This document shows, piece by piece, positions 16,600-38,622 of a stretch of 64,000 nucleotides of DNA (its first letter is position 1; each line of letters starts with the position of its first letter). The translations under genes and the position numbers were made by a program. The notes under the pieces were generated by a model. That model did not search any database, was not told where the DNA came from, and saw nothing but the letters and a program-made list of their open reading frames with translations. This stretch comes from Amyloporia xantha (lineage: Eukaryota > Basidiomycota > Agaricomycetes > Polyporales > Adustoporiaceae): contig JAYKKR010000001.1 in NCBI GenBank assembly GCA_036971615.1, positions 3,968,001-4,032,000 on the forward strand, written 5' to 3'.

Positions 16600-17538
16600 C
16601 TTGGTGGGAGCGGGCCAATAAATGGCAGGACGATTCCTGAGGATTTTGAAGTGCTGTCTTCTATTATAGCCTGACAAGGTTTAGTAATGTAAGATTTTCA
16701 TTACAATTGGATGACTTGCCTCTGATTATTCTTCAGATATTGACTCTACAAACTTATAGAGACAATCTGATGGCTGTGAAAACTAATCCCAATAAGTGTA
16801 GCAATCTACTATATTAACTTTGCAAGCACATGGCAACAGTCATAGAAACAGACTGCAAAGATATTACAAAAATTGAAACTGGATCTTGATACAGGTGTAT
16901 GTCAGTGAATATTGAGAATCTCAATACAAACATTACAACATTTCCTAATGAAGTAAGTGAGTTCTGTCTGATGGAGTGTAAAAGTGATTTTGACCCTAAC
17001 CCATTAGAAACTCTTGTAGTGTCATTACAACATTTACTTACAAAGTGAACATTCTCTATCAAATGAGCCTACTATGTATTTTTCACATTTTGTAATGACA
17101 TTACAAACTCACTCTAATGAGAGTATGAAGTCATCCTCATGATTACATCAGCTTGCTCTTGACCATACAAACCTGCTTTTGAGATCATACATATTCACTT
17201 TAACTGCAATGCAAACCTGCTCAGGCTATAACAATGCTATTTATCAACCAAATCTTACAACAGCCATATCTCAGTAAGTATTGAGAATTCCAATACAAAC
17301 ATTACAACTTTTCCTAATGAAGTAAGTAGGTTCTATCTGATGGAATATAAAAGTGATTTTCCACACTAACCACATACAAACCTTTCTAATGTCATTACAA
17401 CATTTACTTATCAAGTCAATCTTGCCTTTCAAATGGGACCATTATGTATTTCACCCATTTTGTAATGACATTACAAATTTGCTCTAATTAACATTTCAAA
17501 GCCATATCAGTCACCTTACTGGCCCGCTCCCACCAAGT
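16600..17538. repeat. 3'-terminal module of E3
   Basis: Second copy of the module described at 9776-10712. It begins with the element 3' end and is closed by the inverted 22-nt near-copy at 17517-17538. A GCCA/TGGC hairpin lies about 14 nt from the terminus, the position usual for a Helitron 3' hairpin. No coding sequence is seen. Confidence 0.75.
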
Positions 17539-18216
17539 TTGAACGGTTGAGGCTGTAAGTCACACTCCTTCACGATTTCCTCATTCATTCTGATTGCATA
17601 CACTCCATTGATGTCTTCATTTTCATTTTCTGATCATGGTATGATCTTACTTACATTCAATGTTTAGTTGGCCACCAGGCGGCCAGCTGCCCTAAGACTG
17701 GCACACCTACATGGTAAGTGCTTCGCCTACACCTACCACCCCATGTTTACATCCCCCTACACCTACCACCCCATGTTTACATCCCCCTACACCTACCACC
17801 CCATGTTTACATCCCAACATCTCATGTAGCTATAATTGTGGACACCAGGCAGCCAGCTGCCCTAAGACGGGCACACCTACATGGTAAGTGCTTCGCCTAC
17901 ACCTACCACCCCATGTTTACATCCCAACATCTCATGTAGCTATAACTGTAAGTGAGTGAAAATTGTAAGATGCTGGGACTTACATTATTTCAATCAGGTT
18001 GCCTTGAGGGCCACATCTCCCACAATTGCAACCAAGAGGCCAAGGCAAAGACTTGCTACAGGTGTCTTCTTTGAAGTCCTGGGTCCTGCCTTTCATCAGT
18101 CCTTCCCTCCTCTTTCATTGATATATACAGCACATTACTAATCAAAAGGTATATTATATACTCTCATCACACAGTATTCCAAATCAGATCTTTATGTAAA
18201 TAGCCACAGAGCTGTG
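17539..18216. repeat. Spacer downstream of Rep-helicase in E3
   Basis: Counterpart of 10713-11361 with one more 29-bp unit of CCTACACCTACCACCCCATG. It is otherwise almost identical and non-coding. Confidence 0.7.
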
Positions 18217-19040
18217 TCACCCTTGAATCTTTTGGAGAGTACCAGAATCCACAATCTTCATGTTTGAGTCCAAGGTTGACTTGGTACCTCCATCATTGAA
18301 CCATATCTGCCCATCTGGCATAACTGCACGTGCAGTAAAGTGGAATTGTCCAAAGTATATGATGCCACACAGCCTGTATTGACTTTCACCCTGTCCTATG
18401 TGGAATATGGAATCAAAGTCTATCTGGAGACCATTTGTGACAAACACCATAAAGTTGGGTGCTTCAGAGATGGTGTACTGCATCTTGAGCTTCTTTGGAC
18501 ATCTGGGGCACTTGTGTTGAGTCTTGCGCATACACAGGGCATGTAGCCACTCTGATATTTTGCGGTTCTTGGAAGATCCTAGCTTAAATGCACACTCCTT
18601 CCATAATGGCTTTGTACAGTCCCAGAGCACAGGATTGTCTGTGTCACCCTCAAGCTCAGTGTGGCAGTGATTGCAGATCAGAGTCTTGGTCACATAATCC
18701 TCTGGAATGGCAAGCATGGTTGCACACAGCTTGTATATATCAGTGCCCTCCTTTCCTTCAACTGGAAATGCCTCTGAGTCAAGTTTGTGAAGCTCAGCTC
18801 GGAGTTCATCTCTGGCCTCTTCCATGGACAACATGTGTGTATCCACCTTCTGGAATGTCTGAGTGAATCTGGTGAGCATGGCATTTTGACTGGAGATATT
18901 TGCTATCCAATGGTCATGACTTTGTCTATACACAGTGTATAGAATGAAGAAAAGAGAGTCATATGCACAGCTATAGCTCCCACCATCCCACTTGAATCCA
19001 GGAGGACCACTCTTCTCCAGTATGTCAGATGCCTTGGACT
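18217..19040 (-). pseudogene. USP-like cysteine peptidase module at the end of Rep-helicase (E3)
   Basis: The frame downstream of the helicase contains a Cys box (GGSYSCAYDSLFFIL, near 18965), two CxxC/CPxC pairs (CNHCH, CPRCP) and a His box (YRLCGIIYFGQFHFTARA) followed by WFNDGG. Order and spacing match a ubiquitin-specific-protease-type (C19) fold, in which Cys and His form the active site. Some Helitron-like elements carry OTU or other cysteine peptidases, so a peptidase here fits. The largest open piece starts only at 18933, after the Cys box. It is separated from the helicase frame by a shift near 19040 that E2 and E3 share. Either both are decayed or the module is expressed separately. 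Ubiquitin as substrate is inferred only. Confidence 0.65.
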
Positions 19041-19042
19041 TT

Positions 19043-22000
19043 TTATCTGGCGCTCACTCTGCTCAGCCATGTCAATCTCTCTTTGCGCTTGGTCCCTCTG
19101 TTCCTTTGCACCTTGTCATTGCTGACTGTCTCCAATACCTTGGTTCCCTTTGCAGGCACATACTTGGCCAACTGAAGCAGCTGCTTGACCTTGAATTCCT
19201 GGGCCTTTTTGCTGTTGTCTTTGTGCTTTTTGTCTGGTCTTCCCAGATCCTGCCATGCTGCATCCTCAGTTGGCTCTTCCAGTTCAAACACATCTGTCTT
19301 GGACCATTTGAGTGCAGAATGCACGGTCTTTGGCACATACAGTGTTCCCTTTGCCTTGCAATATGAATAAATCAGTGCGTTTCTAGTTGAAGCCTCCACC
19401 TTTTTGGGCAGATGACATTCATAGCGTAATCGGGTTATCTCATCCAGGATCTCCAGCTCACGGAACTCCTGCCGCAGAGAGCCTGATATTCCACCTGTCA
19501 TCTTGTTGGAGTCAAATCCTTGCACAATAATAGTGCCTTCATATGTGGATCCTCTGGAAAGACATGTGTATATAGACTGATGGTTTTTGCAGTTCTGCAG
19601 ATCACACACATTGTCATGTCGTGTTCGCCCCTGGGATCCAAAGTCAGTCATGGCAAAGTTGGGAATAACAGCCACTTGGTCTCGCAGAATGGTCAGGGTC
19701 TTGTCATTGGGCATCTTGCATGTGATCTTCAGGGGCTGGTGTGACATTGGAATGACATTCTCTGGAAGACCCTCCAGCTTGATTGGAGTGGGTGGACATG
19801 TCAGTTTCACAAACAAGGTGTCCAAAGCCATCTTGTTATCATCAATGGGTCTGGCTGTCCACCCTGCAACCACACCCTCTGCACCATTTGTTACACAGCA
19901 CTCTGTTGCCTCGTTGGTCTTGATCATCACAGGCATTCCTTGGCACAGTGACAGCTTACCTGGATGGTTGTCTGTACACTCATGTGGCAGATCCCACAGC
20001 ACTCGCTGGATATCTGGTTGGATGACATTGCTGGATCGTCTTGGATCAAGAGTGGTTGTCTTGCGCTTTTGCTTTTTCTTGCCCTCATTGTCAGATCTCC
20101 ACTTGTCATCAGAGTAGAATGTGACCAATTGCTGGCCTGTTTCTCTAGCAAAGCGTGCACAGCCCAGCTCATTGATTTTGTCACAATATGCATTCCAAGC
20201 AGTAATCACAGAGACATTGCGAAACCTGGGCTGATTTAGTTTGGGTTTGCCCACACCACGTCCTGCAATACGCCCCTGTAGATGTTTGATGTCAGCTTGT
20301 GTACATGACTTGTATCGCATGTTCTCGAGAGCCTTTCTCATTTTTGCATCATTTGGAGTTTGCAGTCTTTGCCTCATGTTTTCACGCAGTATGACCACTG
20401 TGGTAACCTGATGCCAGAGAGCCTTGCCCACAGATGCCTCTTGCTCCCGGTGACTGTGAGTGGTGTGTACAACTGTGCCTACTTTGTGGGAGTACAGTGG
20501 ATATGAAGCTCCAGCAGGTGGCAGTTGGGCAAAATCACCAGCAAAGATCATGTTTACTCCTCCAAAGGGATCACCTTCATTCCGTAGAGCAGCACACATC
20601 TTGGCACATATCATGTACAGACTGTGACAGTCCACCATGGATATCTCATCTATGAATATGTAGTCTACATTCTGTAGCCGTGCTCGCACTTGCATGAGTG
20701 CAGTGATGGAATCAGCCCCAAATTTGCTAAATCCCAGCATGGAATGATAGGTAGATCCTGCAATCAGAGCTGCAGCTGCACCAGTGGGAGCCATGCACAT
20801 GAATCTGTAGCCCTCATTGCGCTCTCCAAAGAAATGGATCAAGGCTTTGATCACTTGAGACTTGCCAGTGCCAGCCATACCACCCAGATACATTTTGAGT
20901 TGTTCACCAGGAGGATCTGTGGCATGATTGGCCACTATGCGAAATGCACGCTCCTGCTCTTTGTTAAGACTGAATTTGGCCACAGTGCTGTTGATCAGAG
21001 TCTGGTCAGCCTCGCACTTGGCCTTGAAGTTTTTGTCTAGATAAGACTGGTCAATCACTTTGACTACATTCACATATTTGTCCTCTGGCATCCCTCCATT
21101 AGTGCTTGCATTTGGATTCTTAGCAACTGCTTGCTCTTCACGTGCCCTGAGAATCTCTTGGCGCTTCTCAGTCAGCAGATTACGCCACTCTGATGCTTTC
21201 ATATGGTCTCCCCTGATCATAGGCTCTTTCAAGGTAGCAACAGCATCTTTGTGCTCTGCAGGAAGACTGTCTAGCCAGCCAGAGGTATGCATAATGTTTT
21301 CAGCCTGCATCATATGTGCCAGACGTAGTTGAGCTCTGCTTCCCAGTTGTTCCCACTCACTGGCTTCCCCTATCAAGTCTTCATCAGGACTCAGGCCATC
21401 TAATCCTTGATTTGCATAATGCTGGTCATCTAGCTCATCAAGTGTCTTCATGTCTGCTGCAAAGGATGGAGCATTGCCATCCAAGCCTGCTCTGCGTGCC
21501 TTGGAAAAGTCATCTCTGGCATCATTGCACTCATAGCGAAGATGGAAAAACTTCATGACATCTCTCTGTCTGTCAGTAAAACTGTGGTTCTCAAATGCAT
21601 CATGCCACAGAGTATCTTTGTCCTGCTTCAAGTCTGCTCCAGAACACCATGGTTTGAAGAGAGTGAGCATGGTCAGACAGTATTCTTCTCTGTTTCCAGC
21701 ATCTTTGCGTGGTAGAGCTCCACCAATAAAGTTAGGAACAAGACTCTCCTCTTCTGCGACCAGTCTGGCTTGTCGAGATCCATAGCGTGGATGGTTTTTC
21801 AGGAATCGTTCAGGCTGCAATTCATTCATCTCAGCCTGGACATTTTGCTCACTGACTAGTGTTTTTGCATTTGCAGTGGTCAGAAGCAGCTCATCCTCAG
21901 ATTCTTCTTCCTCTTCTTTTATAGGAGTCAGCTCGGGTAGGCCATCTGGTATCTCATCAACTGTGCTATCATCAACTTTATTTAGTCTTGTGTTCTCAAA

Positions 22001-22573
22001 CTCATCCTCCGCAGAGATGCCTAATCCCTCATCTATATGATAGTCATTCTCAAAATCTGAATCTCCACTCTCAGCATCAAGGGAATTTTCCACCGTATCA
22101 AATGATTTAGAGTTCAAGTTGTTTTTTTGGGTCTTTCGATTAATGGGCTCCACTCTGGCTCGCCTTATCCAATCATACAGGCAAATATGCTCATACTTGG
22201 TTGGTCTGTATACATAGTCATCAGTGGAGGAAAGAGCCACAAATTTGCCCTGGATATTGCCCAACATCACCTTATCAGGGCCTTCTGGATCAGTAAATAT
22301 CACTTTTGGTGCTTCTGACAAGTCATCTTCCCATGCATGTCGAACTGCACTGACATATGTTCTCCAGAAGCAAATTCTAAACTTGTGACTGGTGTAGTGA
22401 TCATTGTGGTTCAGCAGATACATGGCAGCCATGGGTCCACCAATCTCTGAGCTTGCTGTAAGTGTGTTGACAATTTTGGTAAGTATGGATCTTGCCTTTT
22501 GTTTACAATCAGAGCTGTCACTCAGCAGCATTTCAGAGTTTTTGTCAAACACTCTTCGAATGGCATCAAACAT
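19043..22573 (-). CDS. PIF1-type helicase part of Helitron protein (E3)
   Basis: A 1176-codon open frame continues Rep and carries the SF1B PIF1-like helicase of Helitrons. Motifs in order are GMAGTGKSQ (Walker A), APTGAAAALIAGSTYHS, IFIDEISMVD (Walker B), GDFAQLPP, LRENMRQ, then the C-terminal TNGAEG and YTCLSRGSTYEG motifs. In rolling-circle transposition this domain unwinds the strand displaced after Rep nicking. The first roughly 420 residues link Rep to the helicase and include an acidic Glu/Asp stretch. The ATG at the start is internal to the real protein: a one-base loss near 22585 (GGG where E2 has GGGG) splits it from Rep. A second one-base loss near 19083 changes the last residues. 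The protein would be continuous with Rep if both were corrected. Confidence 0.9.
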   Translation of the reverse strand: MFDAIRRVFDKNSEMLLSDSSDCKQKARSILTKIVNTLTASSEIGGPMAAMYLLNHNDHYTSHKFRICFWRTYVSAVRHAWEDDLSEAPKVIFTDPEGPDKVMLGNIQGKFVALSSTDDYVYRPTKYEHICLYDWIRRARVEPINRKTQKNNLNSKSFDTVENSLDAESGDSDFENDYHIDEGLGISAEDEFENTRLNKVDDSTVDEIPDGLPELTPIKEEEEESEDELLLTTANAKTLVSEQNVQAEMNELQPERFLKNHPRYGSRQARLVAEEESLVPNFIGGALPRKDAGNREEYCLTMLTLFKPWCSGADLKQDKDTLWHDAFENHSFTDRQRDVMKFFHLRYECNDARDDFSKARRAGLDGNAPSFAADMKTLDELDDQHYANQGLDGLSPDEDLIGEASEWEQLGSRAQLRLAHMMQAENIMHTSGWLDSLPAEHKDAVATLKEPMIRGDHMKASEWRNLLTEKRQEILRAREEQAVAKNPNASTNGGMPEDKYVNVVKVIDQSYLDKNFKAKCEADQTLINSTVAKFSLNKEQERAFRIVANHATDPPGEQLKMYLGGMAGTGKSQVIKALIHFFGERNEGYRFMCMAPTGAAAALIAGSTYHSMLGFSKFGADSITALMQVRARLQNVDYIFIDEISMVDCHSLYMICAKMCAALRNEGDPFGGVNMIFAGDFAQLPPAGASYPLYSHKVGTVVHTTHSHREQEASVGKALWHQVTTVVILRENMRQRLQTPNDAKMRKALENMRYKSCTQADIKHLQGRIAGRGVGKPKLNQPRFRNVSVITAWNAYCDKINELGCARFARETGQQLVTFYSDDKWRSDNEGKKKQKRKTTTLDPRRSSNVIQPDIQRVLWDLPHECTDNHPGKLSLCQGMPVMIKTNEATECCVTNGAEGVVAGWTARPIDDNKMALDTLFVKLTCPPTPIKLEGLPENVIPMSHQPLKITCKMPNDKTLTILRDQVAVIPNFAMTDFGSQGRTRHDNVCDLQNCKNHQSIYTCLSRGSTYEGTIIVQGFDSNKMTGGISGSLRQEFRELEILDEITRLRYECHLPKKVEASTRNALIYSYCKAKGTLYVPKTVHSALKWSKTDVFELEEPTEDAAWQDLGRPDKKHKDNSKKAQEFKVKQLLQLAKYVPAKGTKVLETVSNDKVQRNRGTKRKERLTWLSRVSAR

Positions 22574-22584
22574 GGTGTGCGTCT

Positions 22585-23910
22585 TCAGGGAGTTTTTGTA
22601 ATATAGTCTGTGACATAGGAGATAACTGACTTGATGGCTGTTCCAGAGAGCAGGCTGGTTACATCAGAGTTGCATCGGAGAAGATAGCTGAGTACTGGAG
22701 TATATGTGTTTAGCCAAGCCTCACCTTTCTTCATATTGAGAGCTCCAGTCTCAGGATCCACAGTGGTGTGGGGAAATGTCTGACGAGGAAAGCGTGCCTT
22801 GCATGTTCCAGTCTTGACAAACCCACATCCCTCGTTATGACCATGTATGTTGGATCTAAACACAATATTGTTGACCTCATCTGTATACTCTTTTATCCAT
22901 GTGTCATGTTGCATACAAGACTCACAGTCTACCATATGATCACTGCCATGTTTGGTACAAGGTGGGGCTGCTGGACGAGACATAATCATGGTGGGATTAA
23001 CATATGAGGGGTCTTCTTCTTCCTTCTTCTTTACTTTTTCACTCACATCAACCATTGTACCATTCAAAAACTCACCCACATGCACACTCTCCAAGTACTC
23101 CACCATTCGCTGCTGGAAGTCTGAATTGGGATCCATGATACGATCTCGAATCTCCTGGGGTGTAAGTGAGTTTTTGATCCAGATAAGCATGTGTAAGTGA
23201 AGAGTGAGACGTCCTTGTTGCTCTACTGTGCCGTAGTAGGCTGCAGTATCACCATAGACCCCTCTGTGATCAACTCCAACACCTAAGACATGTTTAAGAA
23301 ACAATTCAACCATGACTTTGAAGAAGCGTGCACCTGAAACTGGATTGTTGGCAATCAGTCTTTTACGTAGATCAGGGTGAAGAATGTGTGGGTGGAACAT
23401 CTCTTGGGTGTCTGCAAAGTACAATGCAAGAGGATGGGATACATCAGAAGGAGCAAATGTTATAAACCATGATGGAGCACCCAGAGATGCCGTCAGAGCC
23501 CATATTTCATTACGCATTTGTTTCCGGTTTGTGGAGGAGCCTTGAACTTTGTGAGCAACATGGTCTAGATCATTGATAATTGTAAAACATGCCTTCTCTT
23601 CTTCACTCTCAGGCTTCACAGGTCCTTGGCTCAATCGCTTGATCAGATCTTCTAGTGTGGTCATGGGGACATTTAGTATGCGGTTAGTAATGTCAGCAAA
23701 GTTCTTACGGTTGGTAAGTAAATACCCACCTGTTGTGGAGTTCTTTATCTGCTCATGATTAAATGCAACCAGTGGAAAGTAGCGGTCAAGTTGAAATCGT
23801 TTGTCATGATACATAAGTAGCTGCTGCTTACGCTTTGTCTCAGAGACGGTAGTCACACCTTTGATATTGTTCAATCCACCAAAGCCATAAGGAAAAAGCC
23901 ACGGAAACAT
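22585..23910 (-). CDS. Rep endonuclease part of Helitron protein (E3)
   Basis: A 441-codon frame begins in the Helitron-like N segment (FPWLFPYGFGG). It contains the HUH metal-binding motif in GRLTLHLHMLIW, then Cys pairs of a zinc-binding type (CTKHG, CESC). It ends with YVTDYITK, the YxxxYxxK signature of Helitron Rep whose tyrosines cut and join DNA. E3 keeps the whole region, whereas E2 has lost about 135 bp after the HUH motif. The frame ends immediately after YVTDYITKTP because of the 22585 homopolymer difference. Upstream, the true reading is LYHNPQLYPQ before FPWLF, in a frame one base off from the preceding N-terminal frame. That shift is present in E2 as well. Confidence 0.9.
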   Translation of the reverse strand: MFPWLFPYGFGGLNNIKGVTTVSETKRKQQLLMYHDKRFQLDRYFPLVAFNHEQIKNSTTGGYLLTNRKNFADITNRILNVPMTTLEDLIKRLSQGPVKPESEEEKACFTIINDLDHVAHKVQGSSTNRKQMRNEIWALTASLGAPSWFITFAPSDVSHPLALYFADTQEMFHPHILHPDLRKRLIANNPVSGARFFKVMVELFLKHVLGVGVDHRGVYGDTAAYYGTVEQQGRLTLHLHMLIWIKNSLTPQEIRDRIMDPNSDFQQRMVEYLESVHVGEFLNGTMVDVSEKVKKKEEEDPSYVNPTMIMSRPAAPPCTKHGSDHMVDCESCMQHDTWIKEYTDEVNNIVFRSNIHGHNEGCGFVKTGTCKARFPRQTFPHTTVDPETGALNMKKGEAWLNTYTPVLSYLLRCNSDVTSLLSGTAIKSVISYVTDYITKTP

Positions 23911-23929
23911 CTGTGGATAGAGCTGTGGG

Positions 23930-25508
23930 TTATGATAAAGACTCTGGGTTCTTTGCCTGCCCTATGCCCAGCACTTTTCCAGTCTTGAATTGATGGATTG
24001 CCTTGGCAATGACTGCTCTGGGATTCTCTGCCATCATATGCATCAACTGATCACCAGTTAGACCTTGCACTGCAAAAGGTACAGGCCCCTCCGTTGTTCC
24101 CTTGCCTTCACCAGGTCCATTGACTGCAGTTGCTTCAGGATCTTGATCCCAGTATGCCTGATGATAGTCAATAATCACTGGAGGCACATCCTCTGGATAC
24201 TCATTGAGATTTTTGTATGAGATGGACAGATCTGCATAGTCCTCATGATTCAGTTTGAGCCATTCCAATGCCTTTGCAACCTTGTCACGTCTCACCAGAA
24301 AGGGAGTCCGCTTGTGGTCCTTCTCTGTTGGTCTGTTAGGCCCAATGTATAAGAATGCAAATACTTCATCAAGCTGTGCTCTGCTTGGTGGAAGTTCAGC
24401 ATAAACCTCAGGCATTGGAACTGAGTGACAGATGACATTAGCCTGCATACGGAAACTGCCACTGACTTTGACCTCTGCTATACAGTGGTTGTGTTTGACA
24501 CGAGCGACAAGCATTTTTTCAACCCAAGTAAGATCACAGAGTTGAGATGGAACCTCTCCAATCCAAAGACCATTGGCAGTAAAAAGAGCGCACACAGCGC
24601 ATGGCAGTTCAATGAACCTATTCTTATTCATGTCTGAGTGAAATCCATTGACCACATCAGTGATAAGTTGAGCAGATGGTGCCTCTGGGGGAAAGATATT
24701 AAATGAAGTGTCTGTACCATCTTCTTCAGTTTGCTTCTTAACACATATGTGATCATTCTTGATAGTAGGCTGTTGTTTTGGCTTGACAGAGTGTTCTTGT
24801 TGTCTCAACTTGTCCCGATATAATTGACATTTCTGTGCATTGGTCAAGGGATCTGTTTTCAGTGTAAATAGTGATACAAATGAAGGACAAGACACACATT
24901 TGTGTTCACCCAATGTACGTGCCATTTCATCCACCTTCATGCGTTTGTAGTGAACTGATATGCTATGCAGACCAAGTACCTTTTTCAAAGAAGCACCGGA
25001 TAGACGGCTTGCCAGTGTTTTCAATGGCACATCTGCCAATATAATATCATCGTCTTCATGGTATCTATCTTTATCAAGGAGAACATAATCTGCAAATTGG
25101 TATTTACCATCAGAATTTACAGATGGTGTACCAAAACATACAAATTGTTGCAGATCTTGGAAGGACCAATACCGGCTTTTCTTGGCAGCCAACCCTCCAC
25201 CCACTAAGGATGTATCTAAATGTGAAAACTTGACTTGATAGCATTTACATTGAGAATGTTTGCCAACATTACCAGAAAATAACCCAGCTGACATGCTCTT
25301 ATATATCAGAATGCTTGCTGAATACACTCTGAAGTCATGTCTCCTGATGTGATTGCGCATACAGTAGAGGGATACACTTTTTATCTGGGCTTTGATATCA
25401 AAAATGGGCATAAACAGAATCAAATGAAGCTTATACACCAGTTTGAGTGAGCATGAATCTGGACATGGTTTGATGACATAGCATTTGTTATTTGTATTGT
25501 GTGACTCC
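23930..25508 (-). CDS. N-terminal region of Helitron protein (E3)
   Basis: This region resembles the N-terminal domain of fungal Helitron proteins (DUF6570-like). It has a Cys-containing segment (CAVCALFTANGLWIGEVP), then LTWVEKMLVARVKHN, LPPSRAQLDEV and TPFLVRRDKVAKALEWLKLNH. These last blocks are typical of the stretch ahead of the Rep core. The open frame extends upstream to 25900, but that part is non-coding in character (it contains the palindromic repeats), so I prefer the ATG at 25508 (MESHNTNN). The frame closes at 23930, 1 nt out of phase with LYHNPQLYPQMFPWLF. E2 shares this shift and has an additional one-base loss near 39547. Confidence 0.75.
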
Positions 25509-25515
25509 ATATAAT

Positions 25516-25735
25516 ATATGAGAACGCGGGTGAACGCTCTGTCGCCAAGCGACACGGATTTGTATATGAAAGTGCCCGCCAACACTTTGTCGTCAAACGA
25601 CACGGTATTTATTTCAAGAGTGCCCGCCAACACTCCATTTGTATGTGATGCTGTGATATCTAGATCACATAAAGAGACAGAATGGTTATCGGCTGATAAT
25701 GAGTGGGTACGCACTGCATTTTTCTCGTAGTAATA
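25516..25735. repeat. Short palindromic tandem repeats upstream of Rep (E3)
   Basis: Imperfect units of about 45 bp each contain a short dyad (GTCGCCAAGCGAC, then GTCGTCAAACGAC) and the shared text GTGCCCGCCAACAC. The same block is at about 1100-1210 and 40560-40670. Its position just upstream of the likely Rep start makes a regulatory role possible, but this is inference from location. Confidence 0.6.
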
Positions 25736-26102
25736 CCCAGATATTGCGACAGACTCCATAAGGAGTATAGGCAATAATTTCAGAAGAAAGCATAGCCACA
25801 GCAGGGCCACCAAGGTGTGAGTTTTTGACGATTGCAATAACATGATGTATGGTAGAAGCAATGGTCGAGTGAGAGATGTGGAACAGAAAGCATTTGCCAC
25901 GTCATCACCATTCCCAAAGTCACATGATCAGATCACAGTCATGTGACAAGGTTCAGATCACATGACATGACCCATAACCGCCCTCAAAATCAAATCAAAG
26001 ACTCTTTCTATTATTCTGGTGCAAGTTGAATATACGCAATTGAATTGAACATGTCATTGAATAAGCAGAAGTACGCAAGATACATGAGAGACACAGCTGA
26101 CA

Positions 26103-28452: not shown

Positions 28453-29060
28453 CTGGGAGAGGAAGAATGATAGAGAGCGGATGGACGTCTCTGGAGAAGA
28501 TGGGCTTGCGACGGGGTGGCTTTTATCTGGGTTTGACTCGGAAGAGATAGGAATCCAGACACCGGAGAGTTACGGTGGAAAGGCACTGGGGTCATGTACG
28601 TTCATGTGCTGGACCAATGATATCTTTCTACGTGACAAACATTTCTTTGGGGTGAGATGTAAGAGGATCGGTGGTCACAATTCCGATGCCCGATGCATAG
28701 ATCTCAGTTCTATCGTATGGTGGATCTACAATCCAGGTGAATTCTCATCAGAATGTCTCGAGCTGTATCACCGAGCATACCCACTTTCCCTTGACCTCCC
28801 ACATCGCATTCATCTCCATTAGATGAATGAAATGGGTCTGTAGAATGAGACAATTTAGATGCAGAAAGTGTCGAGGATGTATCAGTACTAGACATGCATG
28901 TTTTGTCCAATTGCATCTGTTGCGAGTGCACGGCAATATTACCATAACCGGGGTAGATCGGAAACACCATCTGCGCTCAGCCACAGTCATCTAGATGTGA
29001 GCAAGACATCTGACCCGCTTTCAACGCCCACCTAGTCGACTTGTCTGTTCCACCTGCAAG
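28453..29060. other. Intergenic region between divergent cargo genes (E3)
   Basis: This is the shared upstream region of the acidic gene (minus) and the 308-aa gene (plus), so a bidirectional promoter is possible. A minus-strand open frame of 86 codons (28710-28970) exists in E3, but a one-base difference near 43980 removes its start in E2. I do not call it a gene. Confidence 0.5.
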
Positions 29061-30261
29061 ATGGCACTTGCAATTCTGTATGACGACAAGGACAAGTATC
29101 GTAAGTCTATGTGATGCTCTGTGAGTTTCAGCCTTATACTTACAACAAAACAGAACAGATGCTGAGCGAGGTTCTTGTCACACGCGAAAAGGATTTTGGT
29201 CGTGCACATCTGGAACACTTTGCAGCCGTACGTCATCTCAATGTAACTGTACCTTCTGCTCACTGTCGTTTAGCCTGATGTTGCATTCCAAATGCTCGAT
29301 CCTTTTCCATCTGAGTTGCCTGTGGGCAAGAGACGTCAAAAATGTGAGCTGGTATGGCGTGGTGAGGGATTGAGCACAAGTGCACCGGAGGAAGCGGTGT
29401 TGTCGCTGCTGGGATATGTATATGAGAAGAACCTGCCTCCTATCCTTAATGGTAGCCAGTGCGTCAGTATGGACTTTGTTCTTAATCGACAACTGACCTA
29501 TCTCATAGACTTCCACGACACCTGGGGAACGCAGAGCAGTCCATCACCCTGACAGGCCTGGGTGTGGACTGTTTTGAGCGGTATGTGCGAGGTGTCTTGG
29601 CTATCCACGGCGTCTTGGCTAGTCATCTTGCTGGACACGCATTGGGCCCTTGGAAGCCGACTCACCTCAACGATGATCTGGTTCTCAAATTCTCTAGCCA
29701 ATACTTTGCTCATCCCCGAGAGGCAAAGGGACGCATCTCTCAGCCTTTGGGTAAAGATGTGGACCCTTCTGGAGTGATGGCCAAGCGTATTACGACTGAA
29801 GTACATCTGGAGGAGAACCAAGTGGAGTACTATCAGTGTGTCAGCCGCGAGTAAGTGGTCATTCAGTCTAAGACGTGCTGTTGCTCACCAAACGGAAAGT
29901 CCTTTGAAGATGAAGCGTCTCAAGCCGTCCAACATACATGTGGGCAATCTGGTTGAGATACAGGTTGTTTTTGGCACCGTTCCCACCTTTGACGGCAGCC
30001 ATCTGTTCTTATGCAAACTGAAGTCAGTATGCGTCATGGACCGCACGGTGCAAGAGGTAAGCACACACCAAAGTTGGATGATTCAAGGTTTGATGAATTT
30101 GCCAGGTCGTGCAACAGCAGCGTATAGACAAGCTTCTGAAGTGTGAGCTTTCCCCAGTGAAGCAGATCAAGCGACGAGTGGGATACAGAGTAGATGATAG
30201 CAGTGAAGATGAAGATGGGTCGCATTCTCTGAAGCGCATGCACTTGTCAGAAGATGTCTGA
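29061..30261 (+). CDS. 308-aa cargo protein of a recurrent fungal transposon family (E3)
   Basis: The predicted exons are 29061-29100, 29154-29227, 29274-29462, 29540-29850, 29900-30056 and 30106-30261, which sum to 309 codons with no frame break. The key segment is VHLEENQVEYYQCVSR, then PSNIHVGNLVEIQVVFGTVP and LKSVCVMDRTVQE. An 'EENxVxYxxR … VGDIVExQxSFxxxP … LxSIxLLD' pattern is very common in Agaricomycete genomes next to transposon genes, and I know of no established function. The C-terminus is acidic then basic (DDSSEDEDG…KR). It is divergent from the acidic gene and convergent with gene X. The splice sites of intron 3 are the least certain. The copy in E2 is intact. Confidence 0.75.
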
Positions 30262-30478
30262 GGATCGGCAATATGACTGAACCGATTATAAAACTCTATT
30301 CGATAATAGATGGTTGTTGCTCGCTAATGAGAGACGAATCAAACAAGAATAGCTATACGTACCTTCAGTTTGAGAAAAGCCCACTTGCTGGACACCCAGA
30401 GGGGCTACAAGAAATAGCAATCGATTGAATACGCAATTTGAAAGATACAAATGATGAAGTTTCATTAAAGTCATTCAA

Positions 30479-32931
30479 TCACTGTTTCCCTGCGCCCCTC
30501 TTCCCCTTCCCCTTCCCGTTTCTTTTTCCTTTTTCCTTCCCTCTCCCCTTCCCCTTCCCTTTTCCCTTCCCATAAATCCTATAGAACTTACAGAGCAGAT
30601 GCTCCATCATAATGGGATCAAAAACAATCTGAGCGCGAAGATGAAAGGAAATATTACGCTCAAGATACTGGAAGACGTCCACAAATGCCTTGGAGACCAC
30701 CTCCTCATCCTTGCAATCAACAGGAACCAACTGCATAAACTCCAGCGCGTGCAACGCACCCTTTCCAATGATGAGAACTTGCTGACCCATCTCCACAGCA
30801 GAAGGCGCTGTGACCTTGCCTGCATAGACAAGATCACAAGTGAGCAATGTAGCGATCAACTCACCCATCTGCTGCGCACGCTGCTTGATAAACTTATAGC
30901 AAGTTTTGAATGGAAGAGGGCCTCCTTCATGCTTGCCCAACAAAAGCTTCCACTGGTTCTCCAGTGAAAAGTAGGAGCTAGCCAACCGGGGGTTGCGTCC
31001 AGACATGCAAGCACCATATGCAGAGAGATTGCAGAGATAAGTGTCGTCCTTGCCCTCTGCCCACTGCTTCCACATGTGAAGACTGGTCCAGTAGTTGGGC
31101 CCCTCCAGCACAGACTGCGTGCCAAAGGTGATACCACGCCAGATACAAGCACTGGCAAAACCACCAGGTTGGTCAATGTGGTCAGGATGGAAGGGTCCAG
31201 ATGCATCCAAAACGCGAAGTCGAGAAGGGGCATGCTCACAAAAGGGAAGCTTCTTGTCAGCGTCGCGATAGACCTGCTCAACAAGCTTGCTACAGTCAGC
31301 AGGGAGTTGGTTTGGAAAGGGAACAAGGGGCAGAAGTTCTTCAACAAAGTGAAGAATGTCCTTGTAGGAGTTAGGTGCGAACAAATATGGATCAAGATGG
31401 GGAATGTGCTCAGTTGGAGGTGATGCGATGGTGGAGAGACGATGAGAAAGAAGGATGCACTCATGAGTGACAGAAGAGATATCAGTGAGCAACTTCCTCT
31501 CTGGCGAGTTGTCATCTGCCAGAGCGCTGTTCAAAAGAACATTGTAGAAGTCTTCAAGATGAGAAAGATGGAGCGAGGAATGTCTGAGCTTAGTCTGCAA
31601 GACAGTTTGTTTCAGATGTAAGGCAGCAAGCCAAACACCGTCGACGAGCAAGACATCTTGAGAACGAGTAGTGGAGATGAGGAATTGGACAAAGTAGGCA
31701 CCAAGGCGAGAAGTGTTGGTGGAATATCCAAGCCAGAAGCGAAGGACTTCATTGAGAATCTGACAAACACGATCGGTGATAGCGGTGGGAGTCTGAAAGA
31801 TACCGCGACAGTGGAATTTGTAAGACTCCACCTTGGCAGACAACGCAGGAAGATAAGTGTGAGGAAGAAGAGAGACCCAGTAGTCGTTGTCGCGAGACCG
31901 AGCCAAGACAGCATCATAGATGTCCATAGAGAGTCTCTCCAGCCAGGTTGACGTACTTCTGATCTGCACATTCAACACCAAGTCCATCACACAGCGACAG
32001 TGATCCATACAGTCTTTGTCCAGCCACATCCAAGCATAGCTGTTGGCTAGCAGAGCCTGCTGACGAAGCAAACGCATCTCCAGACCTTGGATCTTTGACT
32101 TTATCTCCACAAAGTCAAAGTCGCCTTCCATACCAGCAACTGTAGAGGCCATGTCAGGAGAGAGACGCTCCTTACTAGTGTAGCCTTTCAGGAAGCAATA
32201 AAGACGGGTGTGGAAAGCTTGCTCATGCTGGAGAAACTGAGGAGTTGACAGCATGGACTGGTGGATCTGAGTCAAGTTGTCCAACGTCTTCTGAAGATTG
32301 TCACATGAGAAGCACTCAAAGACGTCAGCAATATCTAGAGAATAATTTATAAGACACTGATGCTATGAAGATAGCAAAGATGCATACCATGTGACAACAC
32401 TTCAGACTTAGAATTTCCTCCATCTGTGCTCGCGTTCTTGTCTTCTTCAAACTCCTGTTCTATATGGAAATTAGAATGTAAAGGAACTGTGACATTCTGC
32501 AAGACGTACCACTCATAAACTCCTCAAAAGCATCAAAAGTATTACCCGACTGCGCGTCCATGGGCAAGCCTTCTTCTGCATTATCCGAAACGCCTCCAAC
32601 TAACACATACATCAATTTGTGCATATCTATCTATCTACTTAGACATACCAGCTTTCAGGCGCTTGCTAGAGCGTGTAGCAGAGCCAGATGCCTGCTGCTG
32701 CATCTGCTCAAACAGTGCTTGAGAGCGCAACCTCATGGCAGAGGCAATATTATCCAAGCTAGTATCTGTGCAACAAGTTAGACAAGTCAAAAAGAAATAA
32801 AGCGAATGCTTACTAGCTCTCAATATGGAATGCAAATTTGCTTCTTCTTCTTCTTCTTCCTCAGCTTCTTCATGCTGACGCTTCTGACCCCTCTGTTTCT
32901 CAGAGTTGTTGCCTGGAAATTGTGAAACCAT
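30479..32931 (-). CDS. Gene X, 750-aa cargo protein (E3)
   Basis: Five exons (32931-32814, 32765-32649, 32599-32510, 32459-32388, 32334-30479) give 751 codons in frame. The first 130 residues are low complexity and acidic, with an E-rich tract and a Gln-rich stretch. The remaining 600 are helical and globular, with recognisable blocks MWLDKDCM, YSTNTSRLGAYFVQ, LVDGVWLAALHL, ASACIWRGITFG, YGACMSGRNPRLA and SFENQWK-like YFSLENQWKLLL. The tail is a Lys/Gly repeat (GKGKGKGRGKEKGK) likely to bind nucleic acid. I recognise no catalytic motif. It follows the dioxygenase on the same strand by only about 10 nt. The same order (dioxygenase then gene-X relative) is seen at 55.7-59.1 kb. A partner of the dioxygenase is therefore plausible. 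Confidence 0.8.
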
Positions 32932-32942
32932 GTTAGAATAAA

Positions 32943-35463
32943 TTATGTATAGTGGCAGAAACACTTATGTCTGTAGGTATGAGAGGCTGGAATTAAATAA
33001 AATGAGTCAGAAATAAAAACAAAAGGCAAAGAAAAAAATGCAAAGACAACTTACAACGAATACGACCACGCACACGCTGAACATCGTCCACATCCTCCTC
33101 TGCCTCCCCAATACTCTCCATATACTTCTTGAATGGCTGATAGGAGTTGCCAAGAACCACATGAGGAATTGCACCGCCACGATGAAGACGCATCTTCTTC
33201 CAGAGCTTACCCTGAGCAGCACACTTCTCTTTCTCTGAAGGCGGCATGCTCCAGGCAGAAGGATGAATAACTTCACCTTCCTCGTTCTTGAACGTAATAC
33301 AGTTCATGAAGGCATCAGTGTCGACGGTAGGCTGATAGCAAGCAGGAATTTGATCAAGGCGAGAGGACAAAGCAAGATGAAAACCTCTGGCAACAGCTTC
33401 CAAAAGACCCTGTGCATTGGTCATAGCCATGCCATCAGTGAGAATATTGCCATGATTGACAATAGGAACATTGGGATGAGAAACACTAGAAGAAAAGATA
33501 AGTCGAAGCTTAAGGAAAAAATAAAATCAAGAAGATAGAGTACACACCCATGAAGACTGAGATGAGGAGGAATCTCCTCCAATTCTCCATTCTCCCCACT
33601 GCAAAAACCAACATGCGCCAGCCCCTCCAGAGTGCTGTCGTTAGGATAGTTGATGAGAGTAAAGCGGTAGGAAGTGTTATTGGGTGTGGTGTTGGTGAGC
33701 GCAACAGGCGGAGTTCCACCATGAGGATACAGTCCATTGAAACAGACAGACATAACCTCTTGTGGATCCTCTGGATCATACAGATAGGGCATGGAGATGA
33801 ACACACCAAAGGCAGGAAAGATGAAGACACCAGGATCAACATTCTGGTCCAGTTGAGAGAAGACAGTCATGCAAGACATGGCAACCCAACTGTCATAGCT
33901 ATCCACATGGATACCAGCAAAAGGGCCCAGTTCTGCCTTGAACAAAGCACCTAGAAAATAAATTGTCAGAAAATGTGAAAAAAGCGCAATAAATAGAGGC
34001 AAAAATGCGAAGGGGAGGAGAGAAATTGGATGGAAAGATGGAGGGAGCACCCCCAGTGGGTGTGGGAATTTATTTGAAAAGAATAGAGGGCAAGAAGAAT
34101 AAATAAAGAGCAGAAAGAGGAAATAAAATCGAAATAATAGGGAAAAAGCGAAATAAATAAAGGGAAATATGCGAAGGGAGATCAGGAATTGGATGGAAAT
34201 ATAGAAGAAGCACCCCCAGTGAGTGTGGGAATTTATTTGAAAAGAATAGAGGGCAAGAAGAATAAATAAAGAGCAGAAAGGGGAAATAAAAGCGAAATAA
34301 TAGGGAAAAAGCGAAATAAATAAAGGGAAATATGTAAAGGAGAGATCAGGAATTGGATGGAAATATAGAAGAAGCACCCCAGCGGATATGGGAATTTATT
34401 GGAAAGAATAGATGGCAAGAAGAATAAATAAAGGGCAGAAAGGAGCAAACATATGCAATAGATATTAATCAGATAATCAACTACTTACCTAGCGCCTGGG
34501 CCTGTTGCTTGGTTTTGGTGGAAGCAATGTTCAGCTGAACATTGGTGAAGGCATAATTGCCCTCAAAGCCAATTGGAAACTTAGCAGTGAGCTCAGCTTG
34601 AGCTTTGAGCAAATTGACCAAGTCAGAGTCTCCGCGCTCCAGAGCATTGATGGCGATGCGAGATCCAACCTGATAAATCAGTTAGTGTCTGTACTAATAC
34701 TGGACATGATTACTTGCCTCCACCAGCTCCTTCCGCAACTTGCCATGCTCAGTCAAACTTTCCTCGTAAACTTTGGAAAGTCTTCCTGGAGCGATAAGCT
34801 TTCTCACGCGTTCATAAGACTGGGCCAAATTATAGGCACGAGTGTCACGTCCAACAGATTCAGAAGAGGAACTTCTCTCCCACCAGACCCCACCCTGATA
34901 CTCATCCTCCGAACCGCACTGCTGTGCCTTTGTTCTGGTACACTCGTCCTCAGGACCAATGAGTTGAGAGCGAATAGCTAACAACTTGGCAACAAGGTCG
35001 GAGGGAAGAAGACTAAATAACATGTGAGATGGGAGAGAGAAAAAGAAAAGATATAAGTAACACACCGCTGAGGAACCATGTAGAGAAGGAGGATATCTTC
35101 GGATCCATCCGAAGGGCTTCCAATCTTCCTTCCAATCAAGCGATCGTAAGGTTTCAGATGTAAGAAACCTTGGGCGCGTAAGCGCTCAGATCACATGGAA
35201 AGACGTCATCACTCACCCATAGTCCTGAGCTCATTCGCATTTGCACTGTGCACTTCAAGACTACTTGCCTGACTTTGCATTCTCTCCATCCCTTCCTCGG
35301 TTGAATCTATCATCACCAGATAGGCCTTTCCTCTAGGATCATCAGGACCCAACGGATGACCAACAACCTCCCTAATCTCCACCATCGATGTAGGACGCTC
35401 AGGGATGTCCAGGGGAACACCTAGCAGCTTTTGGAGCTGCTCAGGGCTTGGAGATCGGGACAT
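32943..35463 (-). CDS. 2-oxoglutarate/Fe(II) dioxygenase, 567 aa (E3)
   Basis: Seven exons (35463-35217, 35168-35066, 35012-34718, 34669-34489, 33950-33548, 33485-33055, 32986-32943) sum to 568 codons. The core is a double-stranded beta-helix: GIHVDSYDSW supplies the HxD pair (H290, D292), the distal His is in LYPHGGTPP (H352), and the 2OG-binding Arg is in SYRFTLINYP (R371). This spacing and the HGGTPP motif match a dioxygenase family frequent in mushroom genomes and related in layout to TET/JBP enzymes. Those oxidise methyl groups on pyrimidines in DNA, so a nucleic-acid substrate is likely but not shown. Intron 3 uses a GC donor (GCAAGT). Intron 4 is over 500 bp and holds a minisatellite. 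The E2 copy has the same exons intact. Confidence 0.85.
33960..34480. repeat. Minisatellite within a dioxygenase intron (E3)
   Basis: About three tandem units of roughly 170 bp (GAATTGGATGGAAATATAGAAG…AAATAAAGGGAAATATG) fill intron 4. All other introns of this gene are short. The matching array is at about 48986-49510 in E2. It is AT-rich and purine-biased on the plus strand. Confidence 0.85.
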
Positions 35464-36502
35464 GGCTAGGTATATGGCAAAGAAAAAGTCAGTTGGGTCT
35501 CAATAAGCTAGGGAGAAAAGACCTGCTCACTGTCTGTGTTCGAAAACCAGGTCTGGATGTAGCAGGGTCTTCTACTGGGCTTAAAGGCTGTTCAACAGGC
35601 TTAGGTGAGTTTATAACAACATATAAAGCATAATAGAATGTGAATACTCACATTTATGCTGTAAAATTGGATGGATGGCACGAGGGAGGCAAGCGAGGAG
35701 GAGCGCGCGCGGATGTGGCAAAAGGCAAGAGGAAAAATCTGCTAAGTCCGCGTAGGGCGATCCGCTGCAGTGCGTCGCCCTACGCGCCCTAGACGCCCGC
35801 CGGAAAGTGCCGGAAAGCGTTTTTGCGTGACCTACAGAAGGGTCAAATGTTAATTATATTGCACCAAATTTTGCACGGGCATTCTAATCATGCATTAGAA
35901 TGCCCCTGAAAATTTGGGGTGATTTGAGCCCATATTCCCAACGTTATTAATGGAATACGGACTTTCGCAAAACGAGCGCCCTTTAGGCGCCCGTCGAGCG
36001 CGCCGTTCTCGCGCGGTTTCCTGGTGCTCAGTGTGCCTCCTCCTCCTCCTCCATGTCCTCCTGCTCCTCGAGCTCCTCCTCCTCCTGCTGCTTCCACAAC
36101 AACAAGGCTGTGAGCCTTCTACAAGACCACTGGAGTGTGCAGTAGAAGTAGCAGAAGGGTTACAGGCAGAGGCAAGGGAGCAGGTAAGTATCTTCTCCTC
36201 CTTTTCTGACTGACTTTTTCTTTCAAGCACAGAGCCCTGCATGCACCGCTGCACTGCTCCCCGCCAACGCCACGCCACTCCCCGTCGACAGCAAACACGC
36301 CGCGCCGCTCCTCAGCGCAAACACCCCGCCGCACTGCACACGCCGCGCCGCGCCGTTCCCCGCTGCTGCAGAAGACAAACACCACGCCGTCGAACGCGCC
36401 TCAACCGTGCTGCCCTGAACATGCCACGCCGCCCCGGTGCCCGCTGGTGCAACCCGCCGATCCTCACTACAAGCAAGGTGAGTTTGGCCAGCGCTGCCCT
36501 AC
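35464..36502. other. Spacer with a 12-bp-stem hairpin (E3)
   Basis: No gene is supported. At 35749-35786 CGCGTAGGGCGA pairs with TCGCCCTACGCG over a 14-nt loop, a relative of the E0/E1 hairpin. A second dyad (GGGCATTCTAATCATGCATTAGAATGCCC, 35877-35905) follows. From about 36030 to 36130 there are CTCCTC triplet runs, then GC-rich CGCCGC-rich sequence. Confidence 0.6.
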
Positions 36503-36956
36503 GCCCGCTGTCCAAGTGGACAGCGGGCGCGTTCCTCTTTGCTCACCACAGCCGGCGCTGCCAGCGCCGCCCCATGCCCGCTGTCCTCATGGACAGCGGG
36601 CGCGCTGCGCTCCACCCCGCCCCTCGAGTTCATTGCCCACGGCAACAAATTCGGGGGCTTCGCTACCAGCGCCGCTCGACGCCCGCTGTCCAAGCGGACA
36701 GCGGGTGCGCTTGCGTTCCACCCCGCCCCCCGAACGTGTTGCCAAGAGCAACGCGTTTGGGGAGCTCTCTTAGCTCCCCGCGGGTGGTGCTGCCAGCGCC
36801 GCCCCATGCCCGCTGTCCTCTTGGACAGCGGGCGCGCTGTGCTCCACCCCGCCCCTAGAGCTCGTTGCCCACAGCAACGGGTCGGGAGTTTCATGGCCCT
36901 CTGCGGACGCTGCTACTGGCGCCGCTCCACGCCCGCTGTCCTCTTGGCCAGTGGGC
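36503..36956. repeat. Array of five GCCCGCTGTCC hairpins (E3)
   Basis: The dyad GCCCGCTGTCC-NNNN-GGACAGCGGGC occurs at 36503-36528, 36576-36601, 36681-36705, 36808-36833 and, with two mismatches in one arm, at 36931-36956. Loops are AAGT, TCAT, AAGC, TCTT and TCTT. The spacers carry GCCAGCGCCGC and GAACGTGTTGCCAAGAGCAA-type repeats. Arms stay complementary while loops vary, which suggests selection or conversion acting on the structure. Open frames here are by-products of the repeats. Confidence 0.8.
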
Positions 36957-37556
36957 GCACTTGCTTGTATCCCCGCCCTCTCGAACGTGTTGCCAAGAGC
37001 AATGTGTTTGGGGAGTACTCTTCACTTCCTACGGGTGGTGCTGCCAGCGCCACGGGATGCCGCAGGCACCCAACCTCTGCCCTCCAAGTATAGCTGACTT
37101 GTTCTATTACATCCTTCCCCTCTTCCCGGAATGCGTTACCATTTACAAGGTATATACTATTATCATAGTCCATTAATTAAGGTATTTTCACTCCGGTACC
37201 GCGATTGGGGCCAGTCGGAGTACCTTTGTCATAGCTTCCTTATCTGGATATCGGAAGAGAGGTTCGGTTCGGAGCTCTCCGTATAGACTTCCTTCTCGAC
37301 AGTCATGAGCACCACCATCTACCGCTCTCTACGCCTCCATACCAGGACGAAGCAACACAAAAGTGAGCTTACATTAAATTTATATCGATTCGGCAGCTTG
37401 CACTTTTGCATACGTCGGAGAACTTGGATCTTTTGCGACTAGGGATTAGATAATAGGTGCCGATACCCAATCTCAACACCTGTGGCGATGTCTATATTGA
37501 TAAGAACAAGAAAATTCAGAGGCATGCGCTCTCTCCATATCGCGATATGATCAAGA

Positions 37557-37564
37557 TATAAAAT
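37557..37564 (+). promoter_or_regulatory. TATA-like box upstream of the RPA3-like gene (E3)
   Basis: TATAAAAT lies 49 nt upstream of the ATG at 37613 and is followed by a pyrimidine-rich stretch (CTTCACCGCTTCATTCTCC), as is common at fungal transcription starts. The same sequence precedes the E2 copy. Confidence 0.5.
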
Positions 37565-37612
37565 AGCCTTCACCGCTTCATTCTCCACATCCACTCTCTT
37601 CCTTCATCCATC

Positions 37613-38162
37613 ATGAGCACTCTTTCTCCCTATCCCACGTATGACTGTACCCATGGTCGGGTCAATGGCCGGATTCTTCAGGACAAGTTTGGTCAGTTTG
37701 ACGGATACGTGACAAGGTTGTGGTGCCAGATCTTGGCTGTACGTCATGATCATATGATTGAAATCCACAAAATGACTCACCCGTACCCAGGTCTATCCCA
37801 CTGAGCATTATCTTGAGGTCAAGTCCTCCGACGAAGTGCAGATCAAAGTGGTCCTCGTGAACTTGGACACTGTCAAGCTCGACAAGGTATATTGTAACAT
37901 CTGCGTGTTATATGTCAATGCTCACATGCAACAGATCAACGAGTTCAAGGTAAACACTTTTGTTGAGGTCATTGGCAAAGTCAGGACTCCCACTGAGCTC
38001 CATGCGGATTGTGCCCAGATCATCCAGTTTGGCGATGACTTTGGTGAGCTCACCTTGGACTCCATTGGTCTGCTGCTAACAATAAACACAGACATGAAGC
38101 TTGCCAATGACGTTATCGAGCTTTGGCATGATCCTCGCTTTGCTAAGATGGTCCAACAGTGA
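37613..38162 (+). CDS. RFA3: RPA3 (RPA14)-like single-strand-DNA-binding subunit (E3)
   Basis: Four exons (37613-37738, 37791-37886, 37935-38043, 38092-38162) give 133 aa in frame, close to the usual RPA3 size of about 110-125. The OB-fold features of the smallest replication protein A subunit are visible: an N-terminal RVNGRILQDKFGQFDGYVTR strand region, alternating hydrophobics in VQIKVVLVN, FVEVIGKVRTP, and the C-terminal FDMKLANDVIELWHD helix used for trimer contact. In cells RPA coats exposed single strands during replication. Here a transposon-borne copy could coat the strand displaced during rolling-circle movement. Plant and animal Helitrons are known to carry RPA70-like genes; a small-subunit gene is unexpected. 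It is the gene nearest the element 5' end. I judge homology from pattern only. Confidence 0.75.
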
Positions 38163-38622
38163 TAGTACAACGTAGTCGAGTCAATACGAGAGGTGATGTT
38201 CAGCGATGCACTGAGATCGGTACACAGATAAGACACAACGGCAGCAACATAATCTAACAACTGCACGTGACTAATCTATATAGGGTAACTGATAAGATAT
38301 GGGGTGCACGTGATTAGCCTATATAGGGTAACTGATAAGATATAGGCTCGATCTTATCTCATCAGTGTTGGGGGTTGTTTGTACAAGTCGCGTCGTGCTG
38401 GCAGTTTTGTATTGAACTTTGTAATGGGTAACAAACTTTTGTATTGAGACTACAAGCCACCTTACAACAGCGTTAACAAAAGCCTGACCCTAACCCCAGG
38501 ATCTTGGGCGCTTACAATACAAATTTTGTATTGAATTGGGTTCCCACGCTTAGGGCGCAAAAGTTGGTGTCGCGACTTTTGCTCACCAGAGAAACGCTTC
38601 CTTCGTACCTCAGGAATCGTAA
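38163..38622. repeat. 5'-terminal region of E3
   Basis: Non-coding. It contains two direct copies of GCACGTGATTAGCC/GTGACTAATC…TATATAGGGTAACTGATAAG, then a block shared with E0 and E1. That block includes TTTGTATTGA, CTGACCCTAACCCC and GGCGCAAAAGTTGGTGTCGCGACTTTTGC, where AAAAGT and ACTTTT form a dyad around GTCGCGAC. It ends in CCTCAGGAATCGTAA. Conservation only at the termini across autonomous and non-coding elements points to the Rep recognition and cleavage end. Confidence 0.75.

Follow-up and report, generated by a model that had tools for sequence, protein, structure and literature searches.

The window analysed here is a 64,000-nucleotide stretch of the Amyloporia xantha genome (contig JAYKKR010000001.1; C1:3968001-4032000 in an assembly of 46.8 Mb and 60 contigs, which we label C1, C5 and so on). 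It holds a 22,023-bp element, E3, lying inside a second member of its own family, E2, together with shorter relatives that have the same ends (Table 1). Besides a Rep-helicase gene (RepHel), E3 contains an RPA3-like gene, a dioxygenase-like gene and a gene that we call gene X, and we consider it very probable that E3 is a very large rolling-circle transposon of the Helitron2 type carrying accessory genes.

Table 1. Features of the window (ATIR, asymmetric terminal inverted repeat)
Feature	Position	Strand	Basis and remarks
E3, Helitron2-type element, both ends	16600..38622	-	22,023 bp; 5' end 38622, 3' end 16600 (Rep orientation)
E2, left part (3' side), broken by E3	9775..16599	-	Self-comparison
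E2, right part (5' side), with its own RPA3-like gene and gene X	38623..53661	-	Self-comparison, gene searches
Point in E3's own RepHel equivalent to E3's insertion point in E2	23589..23590		Self-comparison
RepHel	18217..25927	-	DUF6570, Helitron_like_N, PIF1 helicase, C-terminal cysteine-protease-like part; four frames in E3
RPA3-like gene, two exons, 165 aa	37613..38162	+	Pfam Rep_fac-A_3
Dioxygenase-like gene, three GT-AG exons (34669-34489, 33950-33548, 33485-33056), 338 aa	33056..34669	-	In-frame read-through
Possible upstream exons of the dioxygenase-like gene, start MSRSPSP	34808..35463	-	Gene finder; same in C51, partly in C48a
Gene X, 627-aa frame	30479..32362	-	Relatives in protein database
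5' terminus TTACG..., predicted hairpin using the 5' ATIR	38594..38622	-	Folding
5' ATIR, 13 bp, 2 nt inside the 5' end	38608..38620	-	Read from sequence
3' ATIR, 13 bp, 30 nt inside the 3' end	16630..16642	-	Exact complement of 38608-38620
3' terminal region, TTGG...CCAA stem (4 bp), terminus CCACCAAG	16600..16640	-	Folding, weak
Short non-autonomous element, 2,779 bp, same ends, inside a gene X relative	1811..4589	-	Self-comparison, ends
Short element without its left ~617 bp, adjoining the E2 right end	53662..55756	-	Self-comparison, ends
RepHel part of a further copy, 99.7% identical to 24430-25873	1..1444	-	Self-comparison

Comparison of the window with itself revealed two pairs of blocks that are 99.3-99.75% identical, 9774-16173 with 16599-23027 and 23589-38623 with 38622-53662. 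E3 therefore interrupts E2, which measures 21,864 bp when its two parts (9775-16599 and 38623-53661) are rejoined. The first-pass annotation had proposed that removal of 16600-38622 restores the Rep sequence of E2, and other copies in the genome bear this out. When 100 bases from either side of E3 were joined, the resulting 200 bases were identical, without gaps, to the uninterrupted RepHel of two copies on contig C48 (C48a and C48b). A 400-base join was letter-perfect in four of the six copies tested (C48a, C48b, C13in and C13out, not C51 or E3) and a 600-base join in none, as expected because copies differ by ~0.1-1.3%. Since the 200-base join is identical, excision is exact at the junction and leaves no target duplication.

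E2 has a more complicated history than E3: it is rearranged or duplicated, since its two flanks span no site among the eight family sequences compared and its left flank (window position 9775) is also the left flank of a copy at C1:3956811, the two copies lying 21 kb apart. The shared left flank itself points to duplication or to unequal exchange inside the cluster. These features of E2, and the finding that 5 of 45 left flanks in the family repeat others, so that duplication has occurred in these clusters, speak for an explanation in which the nesting arose in the assembly or through segmental duplication and not by insertion. We regard that explanation as extremely improbable, because the same ends occur with 40 distinct left flanks on 16 contigs and independent nested insertions restore exact sites. 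The same two ends had also been said to bound both E2 and an element called E0. They do bound E2 (9775 and 53661), and a short element at 1811-4589 as well, but a bounded E0 was not traced; window positions 1-1444 belong to a further copy whose right end was not found.

The reading of E3 as an insertion gains further support from its ends, which had been predicted to coincide with those of other copies. Genome searches with the element ends yielded 90 left-end and 92 right-end candidates, of which the best 40 in each case were listed, and 45 left and 41 right ends, some taken from within larger regions around copies, were read with their flanks. Every one of them stops at the identical base (45/45 and 41/41). 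An A precedes CTTGG at all 45 left ends, and all 41 right ends finish in TAA, the next base being T at 27 of them, C at 12 and A at 2; with distinct flanks counted once, the left base is A in 40/40 and the right base T, C or A in 27, 11 and 2 of 40. In the orientation of Rep the first bases of the element are TTACG and the last CCAAG, with R (mostly A) before it and T after it; a one-base shift of these ends is possible because the element itself ends in A on the + strand. Joined flanks crossed a continuous site in another family copy in 11 of 24 pairs (10 distinct sites, with E1 and C1s3948 being one duplicated site, only 77.5% identical to its relative), and none of the 11 joins had a gap within 20 bases of the junction, in line with the earlier expectation of insertion without target duplication. 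The other 13 pairs had no comparable site among the sequences compared, and a 25th pair (C25), whose right end was not recognised, was excluded.

E3 combines the two properties of the Helitron superfamily, a RepHel protein with an HUH/Y2 Rep and a PIF1-like helicase, and insertion without target site duplication. Helitron2 elements are defined by ATIRs of 8-15 bp, the 5' copy set 0-2 bp and the 3' copy ~20-30 bp inward of its terminus, and by a hairpin at either end, with the ATIR taking part in that of the 5' end (PMC3627910). The ATIRs of E3 are 13 bp long and lie 2 bp from its 5' end and 30 bp from its 3' end. None of the ends read with flanks has the TC...CTRR termini of canonical Helitron1, TTAC...CAAG being found instead, and the RepHel frames scanned gave no Pfam match to the apurinic/apyrimidinic (AP) endonuclease domain of Helentrons. 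A canonical Helitron (Helitron1) inserting strictly between A and T, as the first-pass annotation had assumed, would be in keeping with the A at 40 of 40 distinct left flanks and the T at 27 of 40 right flanks, so the left half of that rule stands. However, a C in 11 and an A in 2 of the 40 right flanks, the divergent termini, and the presence of a 13-bp ATIR and a predicted 5' hairpin make a canonical element very improbable.

RepHel itself gave Pfam matches to Helitron_like_N (1.9e-35), PIF1 (1.7e-22) and DUF6570 (1.3e-37), and contains HLH (23185-23199) and YVTDY (YxxxY; 22603-22617) motifs, which we take to be the HUH/Y2 Rep signature, as well as a Walker A motif (20858-20881), in agreement with the Rep and PIF1-like helicase first annotated. 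Cys/His/Asp motifs at 18289-18972, in the C-terminal part of the protein, presumably recall a cysteine protease when read by eye; Pfam and PDB searches with this part gave nothing usable. On C34, the helicase of two copies lies within a frame of 2,655-2,657 aa, which in one of the two contains a TGA. Of at least 120 relatives of the helicase, those with a species name come from agaricomycetes, in keeping with an agaricomycete host. Helicases of more distant RepHel proteins, 29-48% identical, are found away from the element clusters at C3:1239370-1242045, C23:885552-887417, C1:417072-418586 and other places.

Seven copies with both ends were identified in the genome (E3, E2, C13in, C13out, C48a, C48b and C51; 21,864-25,851 bp, two of them after rejoining around nested inserts). 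They are collinear along E3, in blocks 95.2-99.9% identical that cover 21,810-21,923 of its 22,023 bases, and so keep the same gene order, as had been foreseen. End coordinates alone, for copies whose insides were not read, imply three more, two on C34 and one on C12. Over 21.9 kb of alignment, 22 substitutions separate E2 from E3, and C13in and C13out are separated by 19 in 23.1 kb; each is therefore a close pair. Judging from end coordinates, short elements of 2.8-3.7 kb share their ends with the large element and would have been mobilised in trans. Within the short elements of the window are 22-bp tandem repeats (2687-3469 and 53879-54665).

The RPA3-like cargo gene of the first-pass annotation is corroborated by a Pfam match of its product to Rep_fac-A_3 (9.4e-10; 39.2 bits against a curated cut-off of 23.5); a sequence search of the PDB gave no match. 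The second exon has 20 matches in the genome, 17 of them full-length, and all 17 lie no more than ~25 kb from a mapped element end. Sixteen of the 17 are without a stop. Away from the clusters the genome search for RPA3 gave just a 26-aa piece. Both exons are present in 15 of 17 copies examined, and 13 of these 15 are stop-free.

The middle exon of the dioxygenase-like gene encodes HVD...LYPHGG...YRF, an HxD...H...R arrangement that we take to be the pattern of 2-oxoglutarate (2OG)-Fe(II) oxygenases in a double-stranded beta-helix. The core exon has 21 matches in the genome, all in or beside Helitron clusters, and none of the 18 full-length ones contains a stop. A relative with 75% identity at C5:436033-436422, inside a Helitron cluster, keeps the HxD...H...R pattern and may represent another family within this lineage. 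Nonsynonymous (dN) and synonymous (dS) divergence between this relative and the core exon are 0.18 and 1.30, a ratio of ~0.14, which indicates purifying selection in this one diverged pair, its dS being near saturation. The predicted structure of the core exon is of low confidence (predicted local distance difference test score, pLDDT, 36). None of the 128 genome matches to Tet_JBP lies on the dioxygenase-like gene. These TET/JBP (PF12851) matches are an expanded set in this genome, and the one in the window (56881-57117, - strand) is a weak fragment below the cut-off. Of the 'dioxygenase' label given at first, the HxD...H...R motif is what holds, the identity of the gene being read from this motif and not from a family match.

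Gene X gave no Pfam match and has three relatives in the protein database (99%, 36% and 33% identity), sharing many invariant residues with the two at 33-36%. Compared with a decayed relative beside 1811-4589 its dN/dS is ~0.36-0.39, and its predicted structure is of low confidence (pLDDT 38). In E3 and C51 the gene finder used, which has no model of gene boundaries, links gene X with the dioxygenase-like exons in one gene of ~1,250 aa; in C48a it splits them otherwise. Possibly the dioxygenase-like exons, an acidic part and gene X all belong to a single multi-exon gene. Of the at least five cargo genes originally counted, an RPA3-like gene and further cargo stand, but the dioxygenase, the acidic part and gene X maybe collapse into a single one.

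Several observations weigh against E3 as a giant Helitron2-type element with accessory genes. The RepHel of E3 is spread across four frames and that of E2 is broken too, and both lack 210 bp of RepHel that are present in the other five copies; C48a is the sole one of the seven copies in which RepHel is a single stop-to-stop frame (2,655 aa). The frame breaks could be real or could be indels of the assembly. Because RepHel is broken in both, neither window copy is established as autonomous, and E3 is probably not autonomous at present. The 5' hairpin (-6.6 kcal/mol for 50 nt) is equalled or bettered by 18 of 200 shuffled sequences, and the 3' stem has only 4 bp, with 15 of 200 shuffles folding as well (30 of 200 for a 61-nt stretch). 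The assignment to the Helitron2 type and not to the canonical one is made from the sequence of the termini. As for the cargo, the dioxygenase-like protein had no match in Pfam, the PDB or the protein database, and hhalign found no likeness between it and ten TET/JBP copies of the genome, a comparison of low power with a three-sequence query, one sequence of which is out of frame at its end. The sign of selection on the core exon comes from the single pair with near-saturated dS described above. Two of the 15 spliced RPA3 copies contain a stop, and the 25 most diverged RPA3 pairs (mean pN 0.029, mean pS 0.052, the proportions of nonsynonymous and synonymous differences) offer weak evidence of selection. 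The gene X frame is broken in three of seven copies (C13in, C13out and C48a).

Such broken cargo copies, and the known capture of gene fragments by Helitrons (PMC6431247), would suit an ordinary Helitron2, made up of RepHel and ends, that has captured unrelated host DNA and carries it as a functionless passenger. We think this improbable in view of the low dN/dS of the dioxygenase-like exon between two diverged relatives and its open frame in every full-length match, the open RPA3-like second exon in all but one of its full-length matches, the invariant residues of the distant gene X relatives, and the near-confinement of both the dioxygenase-like and RPA3 matches to the clusters. We therefore favor a Helitron2-type element with accessory genes. 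The mobile giant Helitron-like element of the first-pass annotation survives in its exact ends, Rep and PIF1 domains, cargo and conserved order elsewhere, but with termini of the Helitron2 type and a broken RepHel; it is complete as to both exact ends, but not as to RepHel.

The 80 best-scoring Helitron ends, grouped with a gap limit of 200 kb, fall into 16 clusters, one on each of 16 contigs (C1, C5, C8, C12, C13, C18, C19, C23, C25, C34, C40, C48, C51, C55, C58 and C59); diverged ends elsewhere may be missed by this procedure. By comparison, the best 80 of 150 reverse-transcriptase matches are scattered over 53 clusters on 30 contigs, and five of the 80 lie inside Helitron clusters, which with their margins make up 3.2% of the genome. 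Some clusters are well inside their contigs (C1, 3.93-4.02 of 4.69 Mb; C12, 1.05-1.12 of 4.14 Mb) and others nearer an end (C55, 1.96-1.97 of 2.05 Mb; C34, 0.17-0.31 of 2.44 Mb). A search of the assembly for the telomere pattern (TTAGGG)x5 found none, which gave no basis for judging the contig ends. In Agaricus bisporus a single large repeat cluster per chromosome was taken as the likely centromere (PMC7473861), and the one-per-contig Helitron clusters are candidate centromeres. Several contigs longer than 1.1 Mb (C2, C3, C4, C45 and C60) are without a listed end, which speaks against this interpretation, though they are possibly chromosome arms. At 38 of the 86 flanks the element adjoins its own family. 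Self-insertion as an additional targeting rule was rejected: of the 264 kb of cluster sequence examined, in regions chosen around full copies, 73% belongs to the family, and clustering alone therefore suffices to explain this number.

Transitions between copies are concentrated at positions that are CpG in one copy or the other: their rate per site there is ~11-26 times that of other transitions in 20 of 21 pairs and ~5 times in E2/E3; between C51 and E3, 95 of 173 transitions fall on the 6.3% of sites that are CpG. This excess is the usual mark of CpG methylation, and it fits an anti-silencing role of the dioxygenase-like gene without demonstrating one.

What has been observed comprises the ends and the target, the empty sites, the collinear copies, the RPA3 match, the excess of CpG transitions and, in one diverged pair, purifying selection on the dioxygenase-like exon. 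Beyond this we envision the following scheme. RepHel, through its HUH nuclease with the YxxxY motif and its PIF1 helicase, would nick at the 5' end (38622); one strand would be peeled off, with a stop near the putative 3' hairpin (16600); and the copy would be joined next to an A of the + strand, mostly at A^T or A^C, without duplication of the target. The RPA3-like single-strand-binding subunit could perhaps help to handle the long single strand, and the 2OG-dioxygenase-like gene could perhaps act against silencing by DNA methylation, with gene X carried as a further accessory gene. It is tempting to go further and to picture a lineage confined to one repeat block per chromosome, perhaps the centromere, which the lineage builds by inserting into itself and where it survives thanks to an RPA subunit of its own that handles single strands and a new kind of DNA dioxygenase that counters silencing by methylation, but we hold this fuller scenario to be rather unlikely.

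E3 resembles the Helitron2 group of Bao and Jurka (2013; PMC3627910) in its ATIRs, the 3' one ~20-30 bp from the 3' end, its predicted 5' hairpin and its 5'-terminal T, and follows the rule given there for Helitron-1N1_CRe of insertion without target duplication. Its family differs in measuring 22-26 kb with cargo genes and in its target, A^T or A^C on the + strand against TTTT^T/C in a Chlamydomonas family (PMC3627910). FoHeli of Fusarium oxysporum (PMC5148889) is likewise a fungal Helitron2 with ATIRs, non-autonomous copies and one nested non-autonomous copy, but it measures ~5-11 kb, has other termini and targets and is reported by its authors to be without RPA-like genes. HELPO1 and HELPO2 of Pleurotus ostreatus (PMC4289320) are agaricomycete Helitrons with RepHel, some captured genes and some clustering; unlike E3 they are 1.5-13.7 kb long (15 kb is also stated for the longest), end in T[C/G]...CTRR or CTTG and are described by their authors as having a RepHel open reading frame without RPA. 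The TET/JBP Helitron2 of Agaricus bisporus (Kojima 2025; PMC12730594) is, like E3, an agaricomycete Helitron2 with a dioxygenase gene, but its PE-type enzymes have HxE whereas the E3 gene has HxD and no detectable TET/JBP likeness. Helitrons of plants, cnidarians and fish carry an RPA-related gene, the match of E3 being to RPA3, the small subunit, and the maize Helitrons of up to 39 kb are described as carriers of captured gene fragments (PMC6431247); size alone therefore has precedent.

The accessible portions of the literature on fungal, giant, RPA-bearing and dioxygenase-bearing Helitrons, which did not cover Repbase Reports and mostly not subscription papers, yielded no description of the E3 gene set. 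The view that such an element had not been described accordingly holds for this size together with an RPA3-like gene and gene X, but is softened by the Agaricus element (PMC12730594) and by the giant maize Helitrons (PMC6431247). Where size is given in that literature, fungal Helitrons reach ~14-15 kb, against 22-26 kb in the E3 family. Seven end-to-end copies, exact empty sites and at least one seemingly selected cargo gene present a Helitron as a multi-gene element with accessory functions. With an RPA3-like subunit encoded on the element, the part that single-strand-binding proteins play in Helitron transposition becomes testable, and the occurrence of one cluster per contig suggests a connection, open to testing, of a rolling-circle transposon with the chromosome architecture of a fungus.

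Rfam at its gathering threshold gave no match in the window, and no tRNA was found in it. Near the 5' end of the large element are G+C-rich repeats spaced 105-127 bp apart (36535-37051 in E3 and 51567-52089 in E2), in a stretch whose length varies between copies.

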